Shown here in pieces: positions 8,004-18,405 of a DNA stretch of 49,215 bases (position 1 is its first letter; every line of letters starts with the position of its first letter). The DNA comes from Candidatus Mediterraneibacter norwichensis (GTDB lineage: Bacteria > Bacillota > Clostridia > Lachnospirales > Lachnospiraceae), in NCBI GenBank assembly GCA_019112765.1, contig DXIU01000089.1, positions 1 to 49,215 on the forward strand. The letters run 5' to 3'. A model generated the notes under the pieces. It made no database searches and was not told where the DNA came from. It saw nothing but the letters and a program-made list of their open reading frames with translations. Both the position numbers and the translations under genes were made by a program.

Positions 8004-8038
8004 GAACTTATCAAAAGAAAAAGGAAGGAGTGAAGCAG

Positions 8039-8788
8039 ATGCTGACAGAAGAACGGTTCGCGCGGATTCTCCGGATTGTCAATGAAGAAAAGTCTGTGAC
8101 AGTACAGGATCTGAAGGAAAGGCTCCATACCTCAGAGTCTACAATACGGAGGGACCTGACAGTACTCGATCAGAAAAAACTTCTTGTGAAAGTGCACGGG
8201 GGAGCCACAGTTCTTGAAATGGACTATACGGCGAAGGACATTGCGGTAGCGTCCAGGATGAATCAGAATACAGAAGAGAAAAGGGAAATCGGAAAATTTG
8301 CGGCAGATCTGATAGAATCTGATGACTTTGTTTATCTCGATGCCGGTACAACGGTTTCACACATGCTGGAATATATCACATCCAAAGACGCTGTTTTTGT
8401 GACAAACGGGATTTCACATGCGCAGATGCTGACGCGGAAAGGATTTACGGTTTATCTTCTCGGAGGCATGCTCAAGCCGGCTACAGAAGCGGTGATCGGG
8501 CTTCAGGCGGCAGAGAGTCTGGAGAGATATCATTTTACAAAAGGTTTTTTCGGAACAAATGGAGCCGACAGAAAATTCGGTTACACAACTCCGGATCCTG
8601 CAGAGGCGATGATCAAGGAGACGGCCATGAAAAAGTGCAGAAAATGCTATGTTCTTGCAGATTCAACCAAAATCGGGCATACTGCGCCTGTGAAATTCGG
8701 GAATTTTTCTGATGCATGGCTGATTACGACAAATGTGAAGGATAAGGAACTGAAAAAAGAGAAAAATATTATTGAGGTGAGAAAATGA
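8039..8788 (+). CDS. fruR: DeoR-family transcriptional repressor of fructose utilisation
   Basis: About 249 residues: an N-terminal DeoR helix-turn-helix (residues 1-55, with VTVQDLKERLHTSESTIRRDL) and a DeoR sensor domain that usually binds a sugar phosphate (DAGTT near residue 105, FFGTNG and a C-terminal ADSTKIG motif). ATG 8039 is chosen because GGAAGGAG at 8023-8030 is well spaced; the upstream GTG 8030 overlaps it. It is the first gene of fruR-fruK-fruA and overlaps fruK by 4 bp, so it most likely senses fructose-1-phosphate and represses this operon through the repeats at 7952-7993. The symbol is assigned from context. Confidence 0.88.
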   Translation: MLTEERFARILRIVNEEKSVTVQDLKERLHTSESTIRRDLTVLDQKKLLVKVHGGATVLEMDYTAKDIAVASRMNQNTEEKREIGKFAADLIESDDFVYLDAGTTVSHMLEYITSKDAVFVTNGISHAQMLTRKGFTVYLLGGMLKPATEAVIGLQAAESLERYHFTKGFFGTNGADRKFGYTTPDPAEAMIKETAMKKCRKCYVLADSTKIGHTAPVKFGNFSDAWLITTNVKDKELKKEKNIIEVRK

Positions 8789-9705
8789 TCTATACAGTAA
8801 CATTTAACCCTTCTCTGGATTATGTGGTGCAGACTGCTGACCTGATTCCCGGACGTGTGAACCGAACCACAGAGGAACATATTTATCCGGGAGGAAAAGG
8901 CAATAATGTCTCTGTTATTCTCTCCAATCTGGGACAAAAAAGCAAAGCGCTGGGCTTTAAGGCAGGCTTTACCGGGGAGCAGATGGAGCAGATGCTGGAA
9001 AGCTATGGATGCTGCACAGACTTTATCCCGCTGGAAGAAGGACTGACGAGAATCAATGTCAAGGTGAAAGCAAAAGAAGAAACGGAAATCAACGGACAGG
9101 GACCGGTCATTACCGCGGCTGCTATAGAGGAACTGTTCAGCAGACTGGATGCTCTGAAAAAGGAGGATGTGCTTATTCTGGCCGGCAGTATCCCGAATAC
9201 GCTTCCGGAAGATATTTACGAGAAAATCATGGCGCGGCAGCAGGGAAAAGGAGTGCGCGTCATTGTGGATGCGACAAAAGATCTTCTCGTTAACGTGCTC
9301 AAATACCGACCTTTTCTGATTAAGCCCAATAACCATGAACTGGGCGAAATATTCGGAAAAGAACTGAAAACCGATGAAGAGATTGTGGAATACGCGGAAA
9401 AGCTTCAGGAAACGGGAGCGGTAAACGTACTTGTCTCAATGGCGGGAGAAGGCGCGATTCTTGTGACAGAGGACAAGAAAGTATACAAGCAGCTGCCTCC
9501 AAAAGGGAAAGTGGTCAATTCCGTCGGCGCCGGGGATTCTATGGTAGCCGGATTTACAGCGGGTTATCTGAATACCGGAGATTATAGAAAAGCGCTTGAG
9601 CTTGGAACAGCGGCAGGAAGTGCGACAGCGTTTGTTTCCTGGCTGGCCACAAGAGACGAGATTGCGGAGAAACTTGAAAAACCTGTTTCTGTATACGGAA
9701 TATAA
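8785..9705 (+). CDS. fruK: 1-phosphofructokinase
   Basis: A 306-residue PfkB-family kinase converting fructose-1-phosphate to fructose-1,6-bisphosphate with ATP. It begins MIYTVTFNPSLDYVV as 1-phosphofructokinases do, has the GGKGNNVS substrate motif near residue 39 and the ATP/catalytic motif GAGDSMVAGF with Asp251 as catalytic base. The start overlaps the fruR stop by 4 bp and the fructose PTS gene follows 13 bp downstream. The position between a DeoR regulator and FruA makes 1-phosphofructokinase far likelier than tagatose-6-phosphate kinase. Confidence 0.93.
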   Translation: MIYTVTFNPSLDYVVQTADLIPGRVNRTTEEHIYPGGKGNNVSVILSNLGQKSKALGFKAGFTGEQMEQMLESYGCCTDFIPLEEGLTRINVKVKAKEETEINGQGPVITAAAIEELFSRLDALKKEDVLILAGSIPNTLPEDIYEKIMARQQGKGVRVIVDATKDLLVNVLKYRPFLIKPNNHELGEIFGKELKTDEEIVEYAEKLQETGAVNVLVSMAGEGAILVTEDKKVYKQLPPKGKVVNSVGAGDSMVAGFTAGYLNTGDYRKALELGTAAGSATAFVSWLATRDEIAEKLEKPVSVYGI

Positions 9706-9718
9706 AGGAGAAAGAAAA

Positions 9719-11644
9719 ATGAGAATAACAGATCTGCTGAAAGCCTGCAGCATAGAATTGAACGGGGCCCCGGACACCAAGGAAGAGACGATCCGGCAAA
9801 TGGTCGGACTTATGGTAAAAGCGGGAAATATTTCCGATCCGGAAAAATATATGAAAGGCGTGTTCGCCAGAGAAGAAGAGGGGACAACAGGGATCGGGGA
9901 AGGAATTGCAATTCCCCATGCAAAAAACGATGCCGTCCGCGCTCCGGGCCTGGCGGCAATGGTCATCAGAAACGGTGTGGATTATGATTCTATGGACGGC
10001 GAACCGGTAAATCTTGCGTTTCTGATTGCTGCGCCGGATACGGAAGAAAATGTGCATCTGGAAGTACTCAGCAGACTGTCTATGCTTCTGATGGATGAAT
10101 CGTTTAAGGAGAATCTTCTGAAAGCAAAGACAGTGGAAGAATTTCTTGCATGTGTGGACCAGGCGGAGAAAGACAAATTTGAGGAAGAAAAACCACAGGA
10201 AACTCCGGATACAGGCTACCGCATTCTTGCTGTGACGGCCTGCCCCACAGGAATTGCGCATACGTATATGGCAGCGGAGAGTCTGGAGAAGACGGCGGCT
10301 CAGATGGGATATACAATTAAAGTGGAGACAAATGGTTCCGGAGGAGACAAAAATGTCCTTACACCCCAGGATATCGCGGAATGCGAATGCATTATTGTGG
10401 CGGCGGACAAAGATGTCAGAATGGCACGTTTTGAAGGAAAGCCGGTAATTGTAACAAAAGTGGCAGACGGGATCCATAAGCCGGAGGAACTGATCCGTGA
10501 AGCGGTGAGCGGCAATGTGAAAATTTATCACAGTTCCGGAAAGGAGGAAGGGGCTGAAGCTTCAGTCCCGGAAGAAGGTCTGGGCAGAAAAATATATAAA
10601 GCGCTGATGAAAGGCGTATCCCATATGCTTCCGTTTGTAATCGGAGGCGGTATTCTGATGGCGCTGTCCTATCTCTGCGACGGGGCAAACGCAGGAACAG
10701 ATATTTTCGGAAACGGGACCCCTCTTGCAAGATTTTTTAATCTGACAGGCAATACAGCTTTTGAAATGATGTTCCCTATTCTTGCGGGATATATTGCCAT
10801 GGCTATCGGGGATCGGCCGGCTCTTATGCCTGGTATTGTGGGCGGACTTCTGGCAAGAGCGGGAACAAGTGTGTTTCTTCCGGAAGAGGAGTGGATTTCC
10901 TCCGGCTTTTTCGGAGCTTTAATCGCCGGATTTGTGGCAGGATATCTGATGCTGCTTATTAAAAAAGCGCTGGAGCGGCTGCCCCGGGCGCTGGAGGGAA
11001 CAAAGCCGGTGCTGCTGTATCCTTTTGCAGGTATTGTTCTGATGGGCGCGATTATGATATTCATTGTCAATCCGCCCATGGGTGCATTCAATGAATGGCT
11101 CAACAGCACACTTGCCGGTATGGGAGAGGGAAGCAGAATCCTTCTGGGCATTGTTCTCGGCGGCATGATGGCAGTTGATTTCGGCGGCCCGTTCAATAAG
11201 GCGGCGTATGTATTCGGCACTGCGTCGATCGCAGGCGGTCAGTTTGATATTATGGCTGCAGTTATGGCAGGCGGTATGGTTCCGCCTATCGCGATTGCCC
11301 TTGGAACGACATTTTTCAGAAAATGTTTTACCGAGAGTGAACGGCAGACAACCGTTACAAATTATATTATGGGACTTTCATTTATTACGGAGGGAGCAAT
11401 TCCGTTTGCGGCGTCCGATCCTCTTCGGATTATCCCGCCCTGCATCATCGGTTCTGCGGCAGCCGGGGCGTTGTCCATGGCATTCGGATGCGGTTCCCGT
11501 GCTCCCCATGGAGGTATATTTGTAGTGGGAATTATGGATAACGCACCTATGTTTCTTGTAGCAGTTCTGGCCGGCGCTGTAGTGGGAATGGCAGGAATCG
11601 TTCTGCTGAAAAAAACAACAGCGGGAAGAACAAAAAAGGCCTGA
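9719..11644 (+). CDS. fruA: Fructose-specific PTS transporter, fused EIIA-EIIB-EIIC
   Basis: About 641 residues carrying all three fructose PTS modules in the order A-B-C. EIIA spans roughly 1-150 with phospho-His67 in IPHAKND; EIIB spans roughly 165-265 with the phospho-Cys175 in TACPTGIAH; EIIC is the membrane channel from about 285 to the end with multiple hydrophobic helices. It takes up fructose and delivers fructose-1-phosphate to FruK. ATG 9719 is chosen for its AAAGGAG element; the frame extends upstream into fruK without similarity. HPr and EI follow directly, so phosphate donor and acceptor are adjacent. Confidence 0.94.
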   Translation: MRITDLLKACSIELNGAPDTKEETIRQMVGLMVKAGNISDPEKYMKGVFAREEEGTTGIGEGIAIPHAKNDAVRAPGLAAMVIRNGVDYDSMDGEPVNLAFLIAAPDTEENVHLEVLSRLSMLLMDESFKENLLKAKTVEEFLACVDQAEKDKFEEEKPQETPDTGYRILAVTACPTGIAHTYMAAESLEKTAAQMGYTIKVETNGSGGDKNVLTPQDIAECECIIVAADKDVRMARFEGKPVIVTKVADGIHKPEELIREAVSGNVKIYHSSGKEEGAEASVPEEGLGRKIYKALMKGVSHMLPFVIGGGILMALSYLCDGANAGTDIFGNGTPLARFFNLTGNTAFEMMFPILAGYIAMAIGDRPALMPGIVGGLLARAGTSVFLPEEEWISSGFFGALIAGFVAGYLMLLIKKALERLPRALEGTKPVLLYPFAGIVLMGAIMIFIVNPPMGAFNEWLNSTLAGMGEGSRILLGIVLGGMMAVDFGGPFNKAAYVFGTASIAGGQFDIMAAVMAGGMVPPIAIALGTTFFRKCFTESERQTTVTNYIMGLSFITEGAIPFAASDPLRIIPPCIIGSAAAGALSMAFGCGSRAPHGGIFVVGIMDNAPMFLVAVLAGAVVGMAGIVLLKKTTAGRTKKA

Positions 11645-11652
11645 ATACTTGA

Positions 11653-11681
11653 TTGAAAATTCAGGCAATGTGTTATATACT
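11653..11681 (+). promoter_or_regulatory. Probable promoter of ptsHI
   Basis: TTGAAA (11653-11658) and TATACT (11676-11681) are 17 bp apart, about 40 bp before ptsH. This would let HPr and EI be made without fructose induction. Readthrough from fruA is also possible since no terminator is seen between them. Confidence 0.55.
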
Positions 11682-11720
11682 TATAAAGGATCACCATATG
11701 GTAAAAGGAGGATAAGACCA

Positions 11721-11978
11721 ATGAAAGAATTCAAATATGTGATTACAGATCCGGAAGGAATTCACGCAAGACCGGCAGGGATTCTTGTAAAACAGGCAGC
11801 TGGATATCAGAGCACTGTAAAAATTGCCAAAGGAGAGAAGTCAGCTGACGCAAAAAGAATCTTTGGTGTTATGGGTCTTGGAGTTAAGACCGGAGAAGAA
11901 GTGACCATCACAGTTGAGGGAGCAGATGAGGAGAAGGCAATTGCCGAATTAGAGGCATTCTTCAAGGGGAATTTATAA
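11721..11978 (+). CDS. ptsH: Phosphocarrier protein HPr, lacking the regulatory serine
   Basis: An 85-residue HPr that passes phosphate from EI to the sugar-specific EIIA domains. The catalytic His15 sits in GIHARPAG. The segment that in Bacillus HPr reads KSIMGVMSLG, with regulatory Ser46, here reads KRIFGVMGLG: position 46 is Arg, 48 is Phe and 52 is Gly. HPr kinase therefore has no normal target, so the classical HPr(Ser-P)/CcpA route cannot work through this copy. AAAGGAGG precedes ATG 11721. It is followed after 1 bp by ptsI. A second HPr or Crh elsewhere in the genome could carry the regulation. Confidence 0.95.
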   Translation: MKEFKYVITDPEGIHARPAGILVKQAAGYQSTVKIAKGEKSADAKRIFGVMGLGVKTGEEVTITVEGADEEKAIAELEAFFKGNL

Positions 11979-11979
11979 A

Positions 11980-13602
11980 ATGATTACAATAAGCGGTAAA
12001 AGTGTTTTCGGCGGCGTGTCAATCGGAAAGCTTATGTTTTACAAAAGAAACGAAAAAGTCATTAAGAGAGTACACGTCGATGATGTGGACGCGGAATGGG
12101 ATCGCTTCCAGCAGGCAAAAGACACTGCTGTATCCCAGCTGAAAGGTCTGTATGATAAAGCACTTGAAGATGTAGGCGAAGCAAACGCCATGATTTTTGA
12201 AATCCATCAGATGATGCTGGAGGATCTTGACTATCTTGAGTCTATTGAGAATATTATCCGTACCCAGGAAGTCAATGCAGAATTCGCGGTAGCAACTACA
12301 TCAGACAATTTTCAGAAGATGTTTGCGGCTATGGACGATGCATATATGCAGGGACGTGCTGCAGATGTAAAAGATGTCTCTGAGCGCGTTCTGGATATTC
12401 TCTGTGGCGTTAATGACGGCATGAAAGCTATGGATGAACCATGTATTATTGCTGCGGATGATCTGGCGCCAAGTGAGACAGTACAGCTTGATAAAAGTAA
12501 AGTGCTCGGTTTTGCCACTATGTACGGCTCATCCAATTCCCACACAGCGATTCTTGCAAGAACAATGAATATACCGGCTGTTATCGGGCTGGGCGAGGCG
12601 CTTCTTCCGGACTATGACGGGAAGATTGCCGCAATCGATGGATTTACCGGAAAGCTTTATATTGAGCCGGACGATGAGACGATGGCTGAGATGAAGGAGA
12701 AGCGCGCAAAAGATCTGGAACAGAAAGCGCTTCTTGAGCAGCTGAAAGGCAAGGAAAATGTCACAAAGAGCGGGCGGAAGATCAATGTATATGCAAATAT
12801 CGGAAATGTATCTGATGTCGGAACTGTGCTGAAAAATGACGCAGGCGGAATCGGTCTGTTCAGAAGTGAATTCCTTTATCTGGAAAACACAGATTTTCCG
12901 ACAGAGGAGCAGCAGTTCTCCGTATACAAACAGGTCGCGGAGAATATGGCCGGGAAGAAGGTTATTATCCGTACTCTGGACATTGGCGCAGACAAGCAGG
13001 TGGATTATTTCGGACTGGACAAAGAAGAAAATCCGGCTCTCGGATATCGGGCGATCCGTATCTGTCTGACCAGACCGGAGATTTTCAAAACACAGCTGAG
13101 AGCGCTGTACAGAGCGGCAATGTTTGGAAATATTTCCATTATGTTTCCCATGATCATCTCTGTTGATGAGATTCACCAGATCAAAGCGATCATTAACGAG
13201 GTAAAAGAAGAGCTTAAGACAGAGGGAATCCCGTTCAGGGATGATGTGGAACTGGGCGTTATGATTGAGACGCCGGCGTCGGTTATGATCAGTCGCGAGC
13301 TTGCAAAAGAGGTTGATTTCTTCAGTGTGGGAACAAATGATCTTACACAGTATACGCTGGCTATTGACCGTCAGAATGCAAAACTTGATCGGTTCTATGA
13401 TCCGCACCATCCGGCGATCCTTGCCATGATAAAAATGGCTGCGGAAAACGCGCACGCAGAGGGCGCCTGGATCGGAATCTGCGGCGAGCTTGGAGCGGAC
13501 CTTGAGCTTACACAGGAGTTCATTGATATGGGTCTGGACGAGCTGTCCGTGTCACCTTCCATGGTGCTTCCGCTCAGAAAGCGTATCAGAGAATGTGAAT
13601 AA
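11980..13602 (+). CDS. ptsI: Phosphoenolpyruvate-protein phosphotransferase (PTS enzyme I)
   Basis: A 540-residue enzyme I that takes phosphate from phosphoenolpyruvate and gives it to HPr. The N-terminal HPr-binding domain is followed by the swivelling domain with phospho-His188 in SSNSHTAIL, then the PEP-binding TIM barrel with FRSEFLY near residue 290, a VGTNDLTQY motif near residue 450 and the catalytic cysteine in GICGE near 500. It is close to the usual length of about 570. AAGGGG lies before the start within the end of ptsH, so the two are translationally linked. A terminator follows. Confidence 0.96.
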   Translation: MITISGKSVFGGVSIGKLMFYKRNEKVIKRVHVDDVDAEWDRFQQAKDTAVSQLKGLYDKALEDVGEANAMIFEIHQMMLEDLDYLESIENIIRTQEVNAEFAVATTSDNFQKMFAAMDDAYMQGRAADVKDVSERVLDILCGVNDGMKAMDEPCIIAADDLAPSETVQLDKSKVLGFATMYGSSNSHTAILARTMNIPAVIGLGEALLPDYDGKIAAIDGFTGKLYIEPDDETMAEMKEKRAKDLEQKALLEQLKGKENVTKSGRKINVYANIGNVSDVGTVLKNDAGGIGLFRSEFLYLENTDFPTEEQQFSVYKQVAENMAGKKVIIRTLDIGADKQVDYFGLDKEENPALGYRAIRICLTRPEIFKTQLRALYRAAMFGNISIMFPMIISVDEIHQIKAIINEVKEELKTEGIPFRDDVELGVMIETPASVMISRELAKEVDFFSVGTNDLTQYTLAIDRQNAKLDRFYDPHHPAILAMIKMAAENAHAEGAWIGICGELGADLELTQEFIDMGLDELSVSPSMVLPLRKRIRECE

Positions 13603-13622
13603 AAACATAGAGAATACGGATA

Positions 13623-13672
13623 AGATGTCTTTTTATGGATGCGTCAGATTCATAAAAAGACATCTTTTTTTC
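13623..13672 (+). terminator. Intrinsic terminator after ptsHI
   Basis: A 15-bp stem pairs 13623-13637 with 13651-13665 across a 13-base loop and is followed by a run of T. It separates ptsHI from the LexA-boxed promoter beginning at 13673. Confidence 0.9.
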
Positions 13673-13721
13673 TTGCTATGACAGAACATATGTGCTATTA
13701 TAACAAAAAGAACACATGTTC
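13673..13721 (+). promoter_or_regulatory. Promoter with two LexA (SOS) boxes
   Basis: TTGCTA (13673-13678) and TATTAT (13696-13701) are 17 bp apart. GAACACATGTTC at 13710-13721 is a full match to the Gram-positive LexA core GAAC-N4-GTTC; GAACATATGTGC at 13684-13695 matches with one mismatch and fills the promoter spacer. The boxes start 26 bp apart and bracket the -10, an arrangement that would block RNA polymerase until LexA is cleaved after DNA damage. The motif match is seen directly; the regulation is inferred from the known LexA consensus. Confidence 0.78.
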
Positions 13722-13789
13722 GAATACATGGGCGCGGATTATATTCAGAAAGTTTAACGATAACGATGTGGAAGGAATGTGAAAACAGC

Positions 13790-15115
13790 ATGAAAGATCG
13801 GATTCAAACGGAGATGACGCTATATGAAAAACTGGAAATATTGTCTGACGCGGCAAAGTATGATGTGGCATGTACCTCCAGCGGCGTAGACAGAAAGGGA
13901 GACGGTACAGGTATGGGAAACTGCAGCAGGGCCGGGATCTGCCATAGTTTTTCTGCCGATGGAAGGTGTATTTCTCTTTTGAAGATCCTGTTTACAAACG
14001 AGTGTATTTATGACTGCAGGTACTGCGTTAACCGCTCGTCAAACGATGTAGTCAGGACTTCTTTTACTCCTGACGAAGTCTGTACACTGACAATGGAGTT
14101 TTACCGGAGAAATTATATCGAAGGTCTGTTCCTGAGTTCAGGAGTGCTGAAAAGTCCGGATTACACTATGGAACTTTTGTACGCTACGCTGTACCGGCTT
14201 CGCCATGTATGCAATTTTCAGGGATATATTCATGTAAAAGCCATACCCGGCGCAGATCAGAGACTGATCCAGATGACCGGATATCTTGCAGACCGCATGA
14301 GTGTGAATATGGAACTGCCCACCGCTGAAGGACTGCGGCTTCTTGCTCCGCATAAATCAAGGGAAAATATTCTTGCCCCTATGCGTTTTGTGCAGGAAAA
14401 GTCCAGGGAAAACAGGCAGGAGATCGCACTGTACCGTTCGGCTCCCAGGTTTGTCCCGGCCGGACAGAGCACGCAGATGATTATCGGCGCTACCCCGGAG
14501 ACGGACTACCAGATTTTAAATGTGGCTGAAGCACTCTATAAGAAATTTGATCTGAAACGTGTTTTTTATTCTGCATTTGTACCCGTCAACCGCGATCTGG
14601 CTCTTCCGGATCTGACTGGAAAAGGGCCTCCGCTTCTCAGGGAACACAGGCTCTACCAGGCGGACTGGCTGCTTCGCTTTTATCATTTTGAGGCTGCTGA
14701 GCTGCTGGATGAGAAAAATCCGAATTTCAATGTGCTTCTGGATCCCAAGTGCTGCTGGGCATTGAATCATCTTGAAGTTTTTCCTGTGGAGATAAACCGG
14801 GCAGATTACCGCCTGCTCCTGAGAGTTCCGGGGATTGGCTGCAAGTCGGCTTCCCGGATTGTAAAGGCCAGAAGAATGGGCAGCCTCGGGTTTGAAGACC
14901 TGAAGAAGATGGGCGTGGTGCTGAAGCGGGCGCTTTACTTTATTACCTGCAGCGGCAGGATGATGTACCGGACCAAACTGGAACAGGATTATATCACAAG
15001 GAATCTCCTGAATACAAAGGAGCGGCTGCCGGAAGGCGCCGACGGCATGACATACAGACAGCTTTCCCTTTTTGATGATGCCGGAGGAATACCGGCGGGA
15101 GGTGATGTGAAATGA
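13790..15115 (+). CDS. Radical SAM protein with C-terminal helix-hairpin-helix, putative DNA repair/modification (TIGR03916-like)
   Basis: About 441 residues. The cluster motif C-x3-C-x2-C is at Cys72, Cys76 and Cys79 (CIYDCRYC) and binds the 4Fe-4S centre that cleaves SAM to a radical. The C-terminal part holds a helix-hairpin-helix DNA-binding motif, VPGIGCKSASRIVKARR, near residue 346. This matches the family named putative DNA modification/repair radical SAM protein, whose genes are linked to a DUF4130 protein or a DUF4130-uracil glycosylase fusion. ATG 13790 is preferred since GAAGGAA at 13771-13777 precedes it; ATG 13766 is possible. The reaction is not established. The LexA boxes upstream strongly support a DNA damage role. 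Confidence 0.85.
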   Translation: MKDRIQTEMTLYEKLEILSDAAKYDVACTSSGVDRKGDGTGMGNCSRAGICHSFSADGRCISLLKILFTNECIYDCRYCVNRSSNDVVRTSFTPDEVCTLTMEFYRRNYIEGLFLSSGVLKSPDYTMELLYATLYRLRHVCNFQGYIHVKAIPGADQRLIQMTGYLADRMSVNMELPTAEGLRLLAPHKSRENILAPMRFVQEKSRENRQEIALYRSAPRFVPAGQSTQMIIGATPETDYQILNVAEALYKKFDLKRVFYSAFVPVNRDLALPDLTGKGPPLLREHRLYQADWLLRFYHFEAAELLDEKNPNFNVLLDPKCCWALNHLEVFPVEINRADYRLLLRVPGIGCKSASRIVKARRMGSLGFEDLKKMGVVLKRALYFITCSGRMMYRTKLEQDYITRNLLNTKERLPEGADGMTYRQLSLFDDAGGIPAGGDVK

Positions 15116-15876
15116 AACAGATTTATATATGCAGCGATACAATTACCGGTATTTACTCTGCGCTCTATGATGCATGGAAAGAGAACCGGGATAAGGAGGC
15201 GGGAATAGAACTCCGGGGAAAAACGCAGCAGCAGCTGTTCTGTGAGTATACCGTTGTGGAAGAAAACGGAGAAAAGGCGTTTCAGCTGGAGCGTATGGTA
15301 AAAAGATATCTGGGATACAATGCCTACTGGGATATTTACCATGCTCTTCTTTCTGACGATGAACAGAAAGGGGAGGCGGTGTTCCGGACGATGCAGGAAG
15401 CCCGGAAGATACAGGACAGCAGGCGGATTATGGATCATCTGGGCAATCCGGATGTGGCAAAAGTGTTTCAGCTGAGCAGAAGCGTGTCAAACGAAGCTCA
15501 CCTTTATCAGGAATTTATCCGTTTTCGTGAACTGGAAGGCGGCCTTCTTTTTTCCGAGATCTCTCCGAAAGCACAGGTTCTTACGTGTATTGCGGAACAT
15601 TTTGCTGATCGGTTTCCGCTGGAAAACTGGATGATCTATGATAAAACACATCAGGTATTTCTTGTACATCGGGAAAGAGAAAAGTGGAGACTTGTATGGG
15701 GACAGGAGCTGGATAAACAGGCAGCGGCAAGGATCTCGAAGGAGGAGAAGGAATATGAGACTCTGTGGAAAGGCTTTTTTGACTCCATAGCAATACAGGA
15801 GAGAAAAAATGACCGTCTGCAGAAAACACATCTTCCGCTCAGATACAGAGCAGAAATGACAGAGTTTTCAGATTAA
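15112..15876 (+). CDS. DUF4130-type probable DNA metabolism protein (TIGR03915-like)
   Basis: A 254-residue protein that overlaps the radical SAM gene by 4 bp. Its start, IYICSDTITGIYSALYDAW, and the central region with RRIMDHLGNPDV, EFIRF and HFADRFP match the DUF4130 family that accompanies this type of radical SAM protein. In other bacteria the domain is often fused to a uracil-DNA glycosylase; no glycosylase domain is present here. The tight overlap implies a two-protein unit made in fixed ratio. Its biochemical role is unknown; it may handle the substrate of the radical SAM enzyme or present DNA to it. Confidence 0.82.
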   Translation: MKQIYICSDTITGIYSALYDAWKENRDKEAGIELRGKTQQQLFCEYTVVEENGEKAFQLERMVKRYLGYNAYWDIYHALLSDDEQKGEAVFRTMQEARKIQDSRRIMDHLGNPDVAKVFQLSRSVSNEAHLYQEFIRFRELEGGLLFSEISPKAQVLTCIAEHFADRFPLENWMIYDKTHQVFLVHREREKWRLVWGQELDKQAAARISKEEKEYETLWKGFFDSIAIQERKNDRLQKTHLPLRYRAEMTEFSD

Positions 15877-15952: not shown

Positions 15953-16038
15953 AGAACAGGAAAAAGTCAGATTACAGCAGCAGTGGATATACGGAAACAG
16001 CTGCTGGTTGGTTGTTTTGCTTCAGAGGGAGAGATGCA

Positions 16039-18405
16039 ATGAGTTCAGTGAATGAAGATGTGCCGGTAATACGTATTTCAGTCAGAAATCTTGTGGAATT
16101 TATTCTGAGAGAAGGGGATATCGACAACCGCATATCCGGAGGAATGGACAGAGACGCTATGCTGATGGGCAGCAGAATCCATCGGAAAATACAGAGAAGA
16201 ATGGGATCGGATTACCATGCCGAGGTCCCTCTGAAAAAAGAAGTTGTTTTCGACGGCTTTCATATTCTTGTCGAAGGGCGGGCAGACGGGATTATTACAG
16301 AACAGGACAAAGCGGAGCCCGGAATTACAATAGATGAGATCAAAGGTGTTCTGAGAGAACTGCGGTTTATAGAAAAACCTGAACCTCTGCATCTTGCCCA
16401 GGCAAAATGCTATGCGGCCATCTATGCGGAACAGAAAGGTCTGGAAAAAATTGATGTACAGATTACCTACTGCCAGATGGAAAGCGAGGAGATCCGCCGT
16501 TTTGTACAATCCTTTGAAACAGAAGAACTAATAAGGTGGTTTTACGAGCTTATCGGAAAATATGAAAAATGGGCCAGGTTTGAAACTGAATGGAAGAAAG
16601 TGCGGAATGCTTCAATTCATGAAACAGAATTCCCGTTTTCTTATCGCACCGGTCAGCGGGATATGGCAGCGGCAGTTTACCGGACCATACTGAGAAAGAA
16701 AAAATTGTTTATTCAGGCGTCTACAGGGGTGGGGAAGACAATATCCACAGTTTTTCCGTCCGTTAAGGCGCTTGGGGAGGGAATCGGCGAAAAGATCTTT
16801 TATCTCACGGCAAAGACAATTACGCGGACTGTGGCTGAGCAGGCGTTCCGGACTCTGAGCGATAATGGCCTGCTGATAAAGGTGATTACCCTGACTGCGA
16901 AAGAAAAGATCTGTTTTTGTGATGAGACGGACTGCAATCCGGAAAGCTGCCCGTATGCAAAAGGGCACTATGACCGGGTAAATGACGCGGTATATGATCT
17001 TCTTATCAGTGAAAACGGCGTCAGCCGGCAGACAGTTGAACAGTACGCATTGAAACACAGAGTGTGTCCTTTTGAAATGTCCCTTGACCTTTCGGTGTGG
17101 GCGGACGCAGTGATCTGCGACTATAATTATGTATTTGATCCGAATGCGCATCTGAAAAGGTTTTTCTCGGAAGGAGGAAATAAAGGCTATATTTTTCTTG
17201 TGGATGAAGCGCATAATCTGGTGGAGCGTGGAAGAGAAATGTACAGCGCGGAACTGTATAAAGAAGATTTTCTGGAGGTAAAGCGCTGTGTGAAGGAATG
17301 TGATAAGAAAATCGCGGCTCAGCTGGATGGAATTAACCGGCTTTTTCTTGCGCTGAAACGGGAATGTGAAACTTATCGGGTCCTGGAGAGTGTTTCGCAT
17401 ATTTCTCTGAAACTGATGCGCCTTCTTACAGAGATGGAGAGATTCCTGGAAGAACAGGAAGGAGGAGAAAAGCGGGAAAAAGTTCTGGAACTGTATTTCC
17501 GGGTCAGAGCTTTTCTGAATATCCATGACATCATGGATGAGAATTACGTTATATACAGCGAACTGGAAGCGGATGGAAGATTCAAGGTAAAGCTGTTCTG
17601 CATTAATCCGGCAGTGAATCTTCAGGGCTGTCTGGAACAGGGAAACGGAACTGTTTTTTTCTCTGCCACTCTCCTTCCCATCCGGTATTATAAAAATCTT
17701 CTTTCGGTAGAAGAGGACGATTATGCCATATATGTGGAGTCTTCTTTTCCACGGGAGAACCGTCTGATTCTCGTGGGTAGAGATGTGAGTACAAAGTATA
17801 CCAGACGAGGGCCGGAGATGTACCGGAGAATTGCGGAATATATTCTTTGTACTGCAAAGAGCAGACAGGGCAATTATATCGCTTTTTTTCCATCTTACCG
17901 AATGCTGGAGGAAGTTTATGAGTATTTCCGGCAGGGGAAGGGGAAGATGGAGTCAGCGGCTCAGACTCAGTATATGAGTGAGACAGAGAGAGAAGAATTC
18001 CTGAAACTGTTTGAAACAGAGAGAGAGGAAAGTTTTGTTGGTTTCTGCGTAATGGGAGGAATTTTTTCCGAAGGAATCGACCTGGCGGAAGACCGGCTGA
18101 TCGGAGCAGTGATTGTCGGGACCGGACTTCCACAGGTGTGCAGTGACAGAGAGATTATCAGGAATTTTTTTGACAGAAAGAATATGCAGGGGTTTTCCTA
18201 TTCCTATCTTTATCCCGGTATGAACAAAGTGCTTCAGTCCGCGGGGCGTGTGATCCGGACGGAAAGAGATAAAGGGGTTATTCTGCTGCTGGATGACCGG
18301 TTTCAGGATCAGAGATACCGGGAGATATTTCCGCGGGAGTGGGCCGGCGTGCGCACATGTGGCATGCCCAGCCTGCGGCATCAGCTGGAAGAGTTCTGGA
18401 AGTAG
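16039..18405 (+). CDS. DinG/XPD-like iron-sulfur helicase with N-terminal PD-(D/E)xK nuclease-like domain
   Basis: About 788 residues. The N-terminal 200 residues resemble a RecB-type PD-(D/E)xK nuclease (GRADGI near 80, a DEIKG motif near 105, then HLAQAKCY). The helicase core follows: Walker A ASTGVGKT near 226, four cysteines typical of an XPD iron-sulfur cluster (292 or 294, 299, 304, 343 with the CPFE context), DEAH at 389-392, and the C-terminal RecA domain ending with QSAGRVIRTERD. XPD/DinG helicases unwind 5' to 3' at forks and R-loops. ATG 16039 is set by AGAGGGAGAG upstream. It follows the radical SAM/DUF4130 pair, which favours a role in repair. The 3' end overlaps the convergent LysR gene by 25 bp. 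Confidence 0.85.
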   Translation: MSSVNEDVPVIRISVRNLVEFILREGDIDNRISGGMDRDAMLMGSRIHRKIQRRMGSDYHAEVPLKKEVVFDGFHILVEGRADGIITEQDKAEPGITIDEIKGVLRELRFIEKPEPLHLAQAKCYAAIYAEQKGLEKIDVQITYCQMESEEIRRFVQSFETEELIRWFYELIGKYEKWARFETEWKKVRNASIHETEFPFSYRTGQRDMAAAVYRTILRKKKLFIQASTGVGKTISTVFPSVKALGEGIGEKIFYLTAKTITRTVAEQAFRTLSDNGLLIKVITLTAKEKICFCDETDCNPESCPYAKGHYDRVNDAVYDLLISENGVSRQTVEQYALKHRVCPFEMSLDLSVWADAVICDYNYVFDPNAHLKRFFSEGGNKGYIFLVDEAHNLVERGREMYSAELYKEDFLEVKRCVKECDKKIAAQLDGINRLFLALKRECETYRVLESVSHISLKLMRLLTEMERFLEEQEGGEKREKVLELYFRVRAFLNIHDIMDENYVIYSELEADGRFKVKLFCINPAVNLQGCLEQGNGTVFFSATLLPIRYYKNLLSVEEDDYAIYVESSFPRENRLILVGRDVSTKYTRRGPEMYRRIAEYILCTAKSRQGNYIAFFPSYRMLEEVYEYFRQGKGKMESAAQTQYMSETEREEFLKLFETEREESFVGFCVMGGIFSEGIDLAEDRLIGAVIVGTGLPQVCSDREIIRNFFDRKNMQGFSYSYLYPGMNKVLQSAGRVIRTERDKGVILLLDDRFQDQRYREIFPREWAGVRTCGMPSLRHQLEEFWK

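Follow-up and report, generated by a model that had tools for sequence, protein, structure and literature searches.

Putative SOS control of a radical SAM/DUF4130 gene pair in Candidatus Mediterraneibacter norwichensis and its relatives

Which reaction would a bacterium entrust to a radical SAM enzyme whose promoter looks like a target of the SOS repressor LexA? The question is raised by two adjacent genes on contig DXIU01000089.1 of Candidatus Mediterraneibacter norwichensis (assembly GCA_019112765.1), of which a stretch of 49,215 nucleotides, in the following called the window, was analysed. The first gene encodes a radical SAM protein of family TIGR03916 and the second a protein of family TIGR03915/DUF4130. 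We know of no activity of the TIGR03916 pair, and no biochemical study of it was found in the literature searched, most subscription papers lying outside it. From the comparisons described here we consider SOS control of the pair very likely, and the pair itself is likely to be a DNA-lesion enzyme. The features of the locus are the following.

13673 to 13678, forward strand: -35 hexamer TTGCTA (promoter scan)
13684 to 13695, forward strand: distal LexA box GAACATATGTGC, one mismatch, inside the -35/-10 spacer and occupying its end
13696 to 13701, forward strand: -10 hexamer TATTAT with TG extension (promoter scan)
13710 to 13721, forward strand: proximal LexA box GAACACATGTTC, perfect core, over the expected transcription start
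13790 to 15115, forward strand: radical SAM gene, TIGR03916, 692.5 bits, 441 amino acids from the likely start
15112 to 15876, forward strand: partner gene, TIGR03915/DUF4130, 247.2 and 170.3 bits, model resembling DHH proteins

A preliminary description of this DNA had placed two LexA cores around the -10 hexamer, and both were found there: the distal box ends the spacer, which is 17 nucleotides long according to the promoter scan, and the proximal box starts 8 nucleotides past the -10. The GTGC half of the distal box overlaps the TG of the extended -10, which presumably is a simple reason for its mismatch. The description of the genes as a radical SAM protein with helix-hairpin-helix (HhH) motif followed by DUF4130 holds as well, since the family scores exceed their cut-offs (343.5 bits for TIGR03916 and 112.25 for TIGR03915) and the two genes share 4 bp at 15112-15115. 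For the first gene the ATG at 13790 is the likelier start than the ATG at 13766 (449 amino acids), judged by eye from the Shine-Dalgarno sequence. The two genes probably form one LexA-repressed transcription unit.

The operator type of the host is fixed by its own lexA and recA promoters, which both carry GAACAGTTGTTC. The host genome contains a LexA-family match over the cut-off, and 41 palindromic cores are found in it versus 18 for the reversed pattern. At the level of the sequence the promoter of the pair carries an operator of the host's LexA type.

If the boxes are functional they should be kept in homologues, and the preliminary claim of SOS control was followed up by a scan of upstream regions, from 250 nucleotides before to 20 nucleotides after start codons that were set by rule and not curated. 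Two sets from the same phylum were used. Set A comprises close relatives, the best 80 of 427 from named genome records, and is biased to close kin. Set B comprises phylum-wide loci with 93 usable promoters, the host genome included; TIGR03916 is found over cut-off in 94 of the 398 genomes of the phylum sample, about a quarter. In set A the core is perfect in 73 of the 80 promoters, and in none of the 80 does the best core depart from it by more than one mismatch; shuffled sequences give means of 0.25 and 6.3. The corresponding numbers for set B are 23 and 64 of 93, with shuffle means of 0.21 and 5.9. Eight control patterns and spacings yielded zero or one perfect match, and with at most one mismatch they matched in 1 to 10 of the 80 and 3 to 13 of the 93 promoters. 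Outside these promoters the set A loci contain 0.003 perfect cores per 270 nucleotides. A pair of boxes 18 to 40 nucleotides apart is present in 63 of the 80 set A promoters versus one of 3239 other tiles, and 36 of these 63 show the GTGC end of the distal box. The arrangement seen in the window is thus kept in close relatives. The check set in the preliminary description, whether homologues keep LexA boxes, speaks for SOS control in most of them.

Counted by family, 34 of 42 contain one or more members whose box has no more than one mismatch, and 16 of 42 have a perfect box. This listing includes one locus (L131) that was omitted from the set B count, having 72 nucleotides upstream only, and some of the matches lie far upstream (e.g. 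-127 in family f57, -178 in f17) and may be due to chance. The column consensus of the boxes across the phylum is GAACATATGTTY, which we take to agree with the Bacillus LexA consensus. As a yardstick the same scoring was applied to 45 loci matching the lexA model, with starts inferred by length and with one LexA fragment (genome G387) and one second paralogue counted in. A box was found in 32 of them, and the target gene is therefore hit at about the same rate as lexA.

Copies of TIGR03916 are also found in Proteobacteria, Bacteroidota, Fusobacteriota and Gemmatimonadota, for which 27 plasmid or chromid records were read; in seven unannotated plasmid records the start was placed near the start of the match. 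A perfect GAACN7GAAC or GTTCN7GTTC is present at every one of the 19 alphaproteobacterial loci (one of 530 other tiles; shuffle mean 0.15 of 19), and among spacings of 0 to 12 perfect direct GAAC or GTTC repeats occur only at spacing 7. These loci span Rhodobacterales, Hyphomicrobiales, Rhodospirillales and Sphingomonadales, and as they include close kin they are not 19 independent events. The three betaproteobacterial loci all contain CTGTN8ACAG (0 of 95 other tiles), which we take to be the E. coli-type LexA motif. None of the alpha- or betaproteobacterial loci has a perfect Gram-positive core, and the same-phylum sets contain neither of the two proteobacterial box types, apart from one CTGT-N8-ACAG. 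The lone perfect control match of set A is a CTGT-N8-ACAG. The GAAC direct repeat is given as the alphaproteobacterial LexA motif in the available part of PMC8565304. The box type follows the clade, as would be expected if each copy were regulated by the LexA of its own clade. The copies from Bacteroides, Spirosoma, Acinetobacter, Fusobacterium and Gemmatirosa show none of the three box types (0 of 5). The Bacteroidetes LexA motifs GGA-N5-TCC and CTAA-N5-TTAG, as quoted in PMC8565304, gave at the two Bacteroidota copies a single GGA-type match with one mismatch, and these copies lend no support.

Some observations limit the case for SOS control of the pair. Taken alone the window is weak evidence, and it is the comparison that is strong: perfect cores are expected at a mean of 0.68 per 49-kb window, at least one being found in 51 of 100 shuffles, one-mismatch matches number 26 against 16.8 expected, and the promoter scan, which alone proves nothing, reports 2 promoter-like sites in the window against 3.4 expected. 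Furthermore, 29 of the 93 phylum-wide promoters have no core at one mismatch or less. A LexA-family match over cut-off is present in 92 of the 93 genomes and thus in most of those lacking a box, so that loss of LexA does not explain the missing boxes there. The best LexA match is partial or weak (110 to 127 bits) in genomes G046, G158 and G335 and only a fragment in G387; all four are boxless versus 25 of the 89 others (Fisher p 0.008, in a post hoc test). In the four f57 genomes (G046, G084, G276 and G297; loci L273 to L276) the two genes lie at loci far from each other, and there is no convincing box at TIGR03916 and none within 300 nucleotides of the split-off partner. The f85 promoters of seven genomes have no box at one mismatch or less. 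The five of them that were examined all hold GAATATATATTC or GAATATGTATTC, palindromes two mismatches off the core, which is no more than suggestive of LexA boxes.

What, then, are the two proteins? The first one scores 25.0 bits with the general Radical_SAM model of Pfam, below the cut-off of 29.5. In an alignment of 103 rows the following elements are conserved.

13871 to 13873, 13940 to 13942 and 13967 to 13969, forward strand: codons of C28 (103 of 103 rows), C51 and C60 (102 of 103 rows)
14003 to 14026, forward strand: radical SAM motif CX3CX2C with C72, C76 and C79 (103 of 103 rows)
14786 to 14908, forward strand: HhH motif, PF12836 (HHH_3), 27.4 bits, just over the cut-off of 27.0

The cysteines C28, C51 and C60 are the probable ligands of a second cluster. 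The lone row without C51 and C60 has tyrosine at both positions (locus L172); it comes from genome G387, where TIGR03916 is an orphan without TIGR03915, without a box and with only the LexA fragment. The case, a single one, suggests a common site for C51 and C60 that is important where the system works. The HhH residues P347, G348 and G350 are invariant in all rows, and a profile search of the Protein Data Bank relates the region to ComEA (E 1.6e-5) and, with weak matches, to RuvA (E 0.018) and Topoisomerase V (E 0.7). The predicted fold is that of a radical SAM enzyme, with lipoyl synthase and HydE the nearest among the 50 solved folds listed, which also include MqnE and BioB. Membership in the lipoyl synthases (LipA/LIAS) was rejected, as the family scan gives TIGR03916 only, hhalign gives a probability of only 8% (E 0.004), HydE ties within one Z unit in the fold match, the cysteine spacing is C-x22-C-x8-C and not CX4CX5C, and the window protein has the HhH tail in addition.

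The DUF4130 model finds its best solved matches among DHH proteins (PAP phosphatase, RecJ, Cdc45) over residues 1-211, with modest scores. By sequence no convincing solved relative was found, one match having an E-value of 0.44. Within residues 1-125 no Asp or His column exceeds 60% in 124 rows, and the conserved ligands of the DHH phosphoesterases are missing. In contrast to those enzymes DUF4130 may therefore be at most an inactive scaffold similar to Cdc45. The search for the partner families TIGR03914 and TIGR03915 covered 80 of the 94 same-phylum genomes with TIGR03916: TIGR03915 is present at E ≤ 0.001 in 79 of them and over cut-off in 71.

The tie to uracil-DNA glycosylase (UDG) that had been proposed earlier stands for one part of the tree only. 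In alpha- and betaproteobacteria DUF4130 is fused to UdgX, annotated as such in 16 of 22 records, the other six being unannotated or ending before the partner. Four fusions that were scanned score 245 to 349 bits with TIGR03914, and all five that were read keep the histidine of a GKRRIH-type loop (GKRRIH twice, GKRRLH, GKQRLH and GRKRLH), presumably the covalent residue of UdgX. The tie fails in Acinetobacter, as also in Bacteroides and Spirosoma, where DUF4130 stands alone, and in the phylum of the window, where none of the 80 genomes has TIGR03914 over cut-off; matches below cut-off in 52 of them were read as other UDGs, and the host genome has no match at all. With no UdgX over cut-off in this phylum, the core function would not need it. 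Of the three linked NCBIfam families TIGR03916, TIGR03915 and TIGR03914 (rSAM_link_UDG, SAM_7_link_chp, UDG_fam_dom), the window pair comprises full members of the first and the second.

SOS control of such genes is already in print, for Clostridium acetobutylicum and for the COG1573-COG4277 operon of Bacteroidetes; COG4277 we take to be the HhH protein family equal to TIGR03916. In the accessible text of PMC3828012 (2013), CAC3343-CAC3344 of C. acetobutylicum are placed in the LexA regulon from footprinting and expression; they belong to another genus than the window pair, the orthology follows from their description only, and that text does not touch on how the enzyme works. For the COG1573-COG4277 operon, named there 'UDG base excision repair', PMC8565304 predicts SOS control in Bacteroidetes and cites Verrucomicrobia and Alphaproteobacteria; the partner in that operon is read as a UDG, whereas the window has DUF4130 alone and no UDG. 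A protein of this description is raised in Acinetobacter on desiccation according to the part of PMC13130816 at hand. The excerpts of PMC9380542 and PMC7739468 name a 'Radical SAM protein', vnz_31145, among Streptomyces LexA targets and a 'radical SAM protein' in a Gram-positive core regulon, each of which may or may not belong to TIGR03916. A 2025 paper on the Caulobacter SOS response (PMC12700426) has no mention of the pair under the terms tried. As far as the literature was searched, the clade-wise change of the box within a single data set, the pattern of six cysteines, two of which an orphan lacks, and the proposed DHH-like fold of DUF4130 go beyond what has been published.

The overall reading that we favour, with fair but not full confidence, is a damage-induced radical SAM complex for the processing of DNA lesions under LexA. 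The promoter is overlaid by two operators, of which the first lies in the spacer and the second at the expected start. According to established SOS biology, DNA damage would activate RecA, LexA would cleave itself and the pair would be made. TIGR03916 would bind DNA through its HhH tail, S-adenosylmethionine would be reductively cleaved at the [4Fe-4S] cluster of C72, C76 and C79, and the 5'-deoxyadenosyl radical would attack a damaged nucleotide. DUF4130 may act as a non-catalytic, DHH-like clamp presenting the strand, which is probably single. In alpha- and betaproteobacteria the fused UdgX would add the capture of uracil or abasic sites, and the presence of UdgX makes a base or abasic lesion the likeliest guess at the substrate. 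A more specific version, which we put forward as doubtful, is a two-cluster repair machine of a new class, similar to lipoyl synthase, with strands held by a dead RecJ/Cdc45-type clamp and with covalent uracil or abasic capture by UdgX added in alpha- and betaproteobacteria, where the radical chemistry might serve to process, or else to set free, either the UdgX-abasic-DNA adduct or the lesion sugar itself. Conserved SOS control across clades with three LexA operators would mean that the substrate arises from DNA damage, and assays could then concentrate on DNA lesions instead of covering every kind of radical SAM reaction. What the cysteines and the predicted folds suggest makes two clusters and a DNA-holding partner the first targets.

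Other explanations have to be weighed against this complex. The pair could be SOS-controlled and act in mutagenesis or programmed base modification, for instance by altering thymine or cytosine ahead of UDG-type enzymes or error-prone polymerases. The consulted section of PMC3765255 predicts for DUF4130 an enzymatic role related to mutagenesis and associates it with radical SAM proteins of the SplB type and with UDGs, and the UdgX fusion would fit as well; yet the same-phylum pairs do without UdgX and by eye no polymerase gene adjoins the pair in the window, and we regard this explanation as unlikely. It is also hard to credit that the pair acts on RNA or on a component of the nucleotide pool and is merely co-induced with SOS genes. 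HhH motifs are general and the nearest predicted folds belong to radical SAM enzymes acting on small molecules and proteins, but the HhH region resembles that of ComEA and, weakly, those of RuvA and Topoisomerase V, and DNA is also the target suggested by the usual pairing and by the UdgX fusion.

The analogy to spore photoproduct lyase (SplB), on which the preliminary description had leaned, would imply direct reversal of thymine dimers or related UV lesions. It can draw on the combination of a radical SAM enzyme with a DNA-binding motif and damage control, and for splB itself, whose product also repairs DNA, the portion of PMC3323433 available predicts SOS regulation in alpha- and betaproteobacteria. 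Beyond the shared radical SAM class nothing of the analogy was recovered. Membership was rejected at the profile level, where hhalign gives 4% (E 0.0099) over 37 columns with the similarity limited to the cluster motif; the Pfam scan of the protein has no match to the lyase at E ≤ 0.01, the host genome has no PF20903 match at E ≤ 0.001, and the three extra conserved cysteines and the HhH tail set the window protein apart. The lyase is absent among the 50 nearest folds listed, led by LipA and HydE, a result that excludes nothing. In addition, record titles place many of the close relatives in the gut or in faeces, where UV is presumably scarce, and a lyase-like function is accordingly quite improbable. 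That the boxes are chance matches, for which the number of perfect cores expected per window could be cited, is hardly conceivable and was rejected on the sequence comparison: conservation in relatives, box pairs and clade-specific box types all exceed what shuffles and tiles provide.

Regarding the surroundings of the pair, one further element lies directly upstream.

13622 to 13666, forward strand: intrinsic terminator of the upstream gene, a 19-pair stem followed by a T run

Since it closes the upstream gene, the promoter of the pair is isolated. By eye the preceding genes (8030-13602) form an apparent fructose phosphotransferase system operon with a DeoR-type regulator, 1-phosphofructokinase, permease, HPr and enzyme I. 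Downstream a DinG/Rad3-type helicase is encoded at 16012-18405, which scores 407 bits with the PADLOC model of the type IV-A CRISPR-associated DinG; such a gene follows the pair in 53 of the 71 close relatives with room for it. The window scan shows no LexA core at one mismatch or less between the pair and the helicase gene, and none of the defence-system models matches the pair. The host genome has no uvrB over cut-off; the best match lies in a frame of 1133 amino acids that may be Mfd, which is a guess, and either a gap in the assembly or a true loss of excision repair may lie behind the missing gene. In a plasmid collection with 158 records of the TIGR03916 gene, 58 of them from Phaeobacter, the gene is often found on megaplasmids and chromids of Alphaproteobacteria, and in two Paracoccus records the pair is followed by a catalase gene. 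TIGR03916-like sequences also occur in ten phage-labelled records (e.g. MT835514.1, 32115-33407), several of which are short contigs from faeces and perhaps bacterial in origin.

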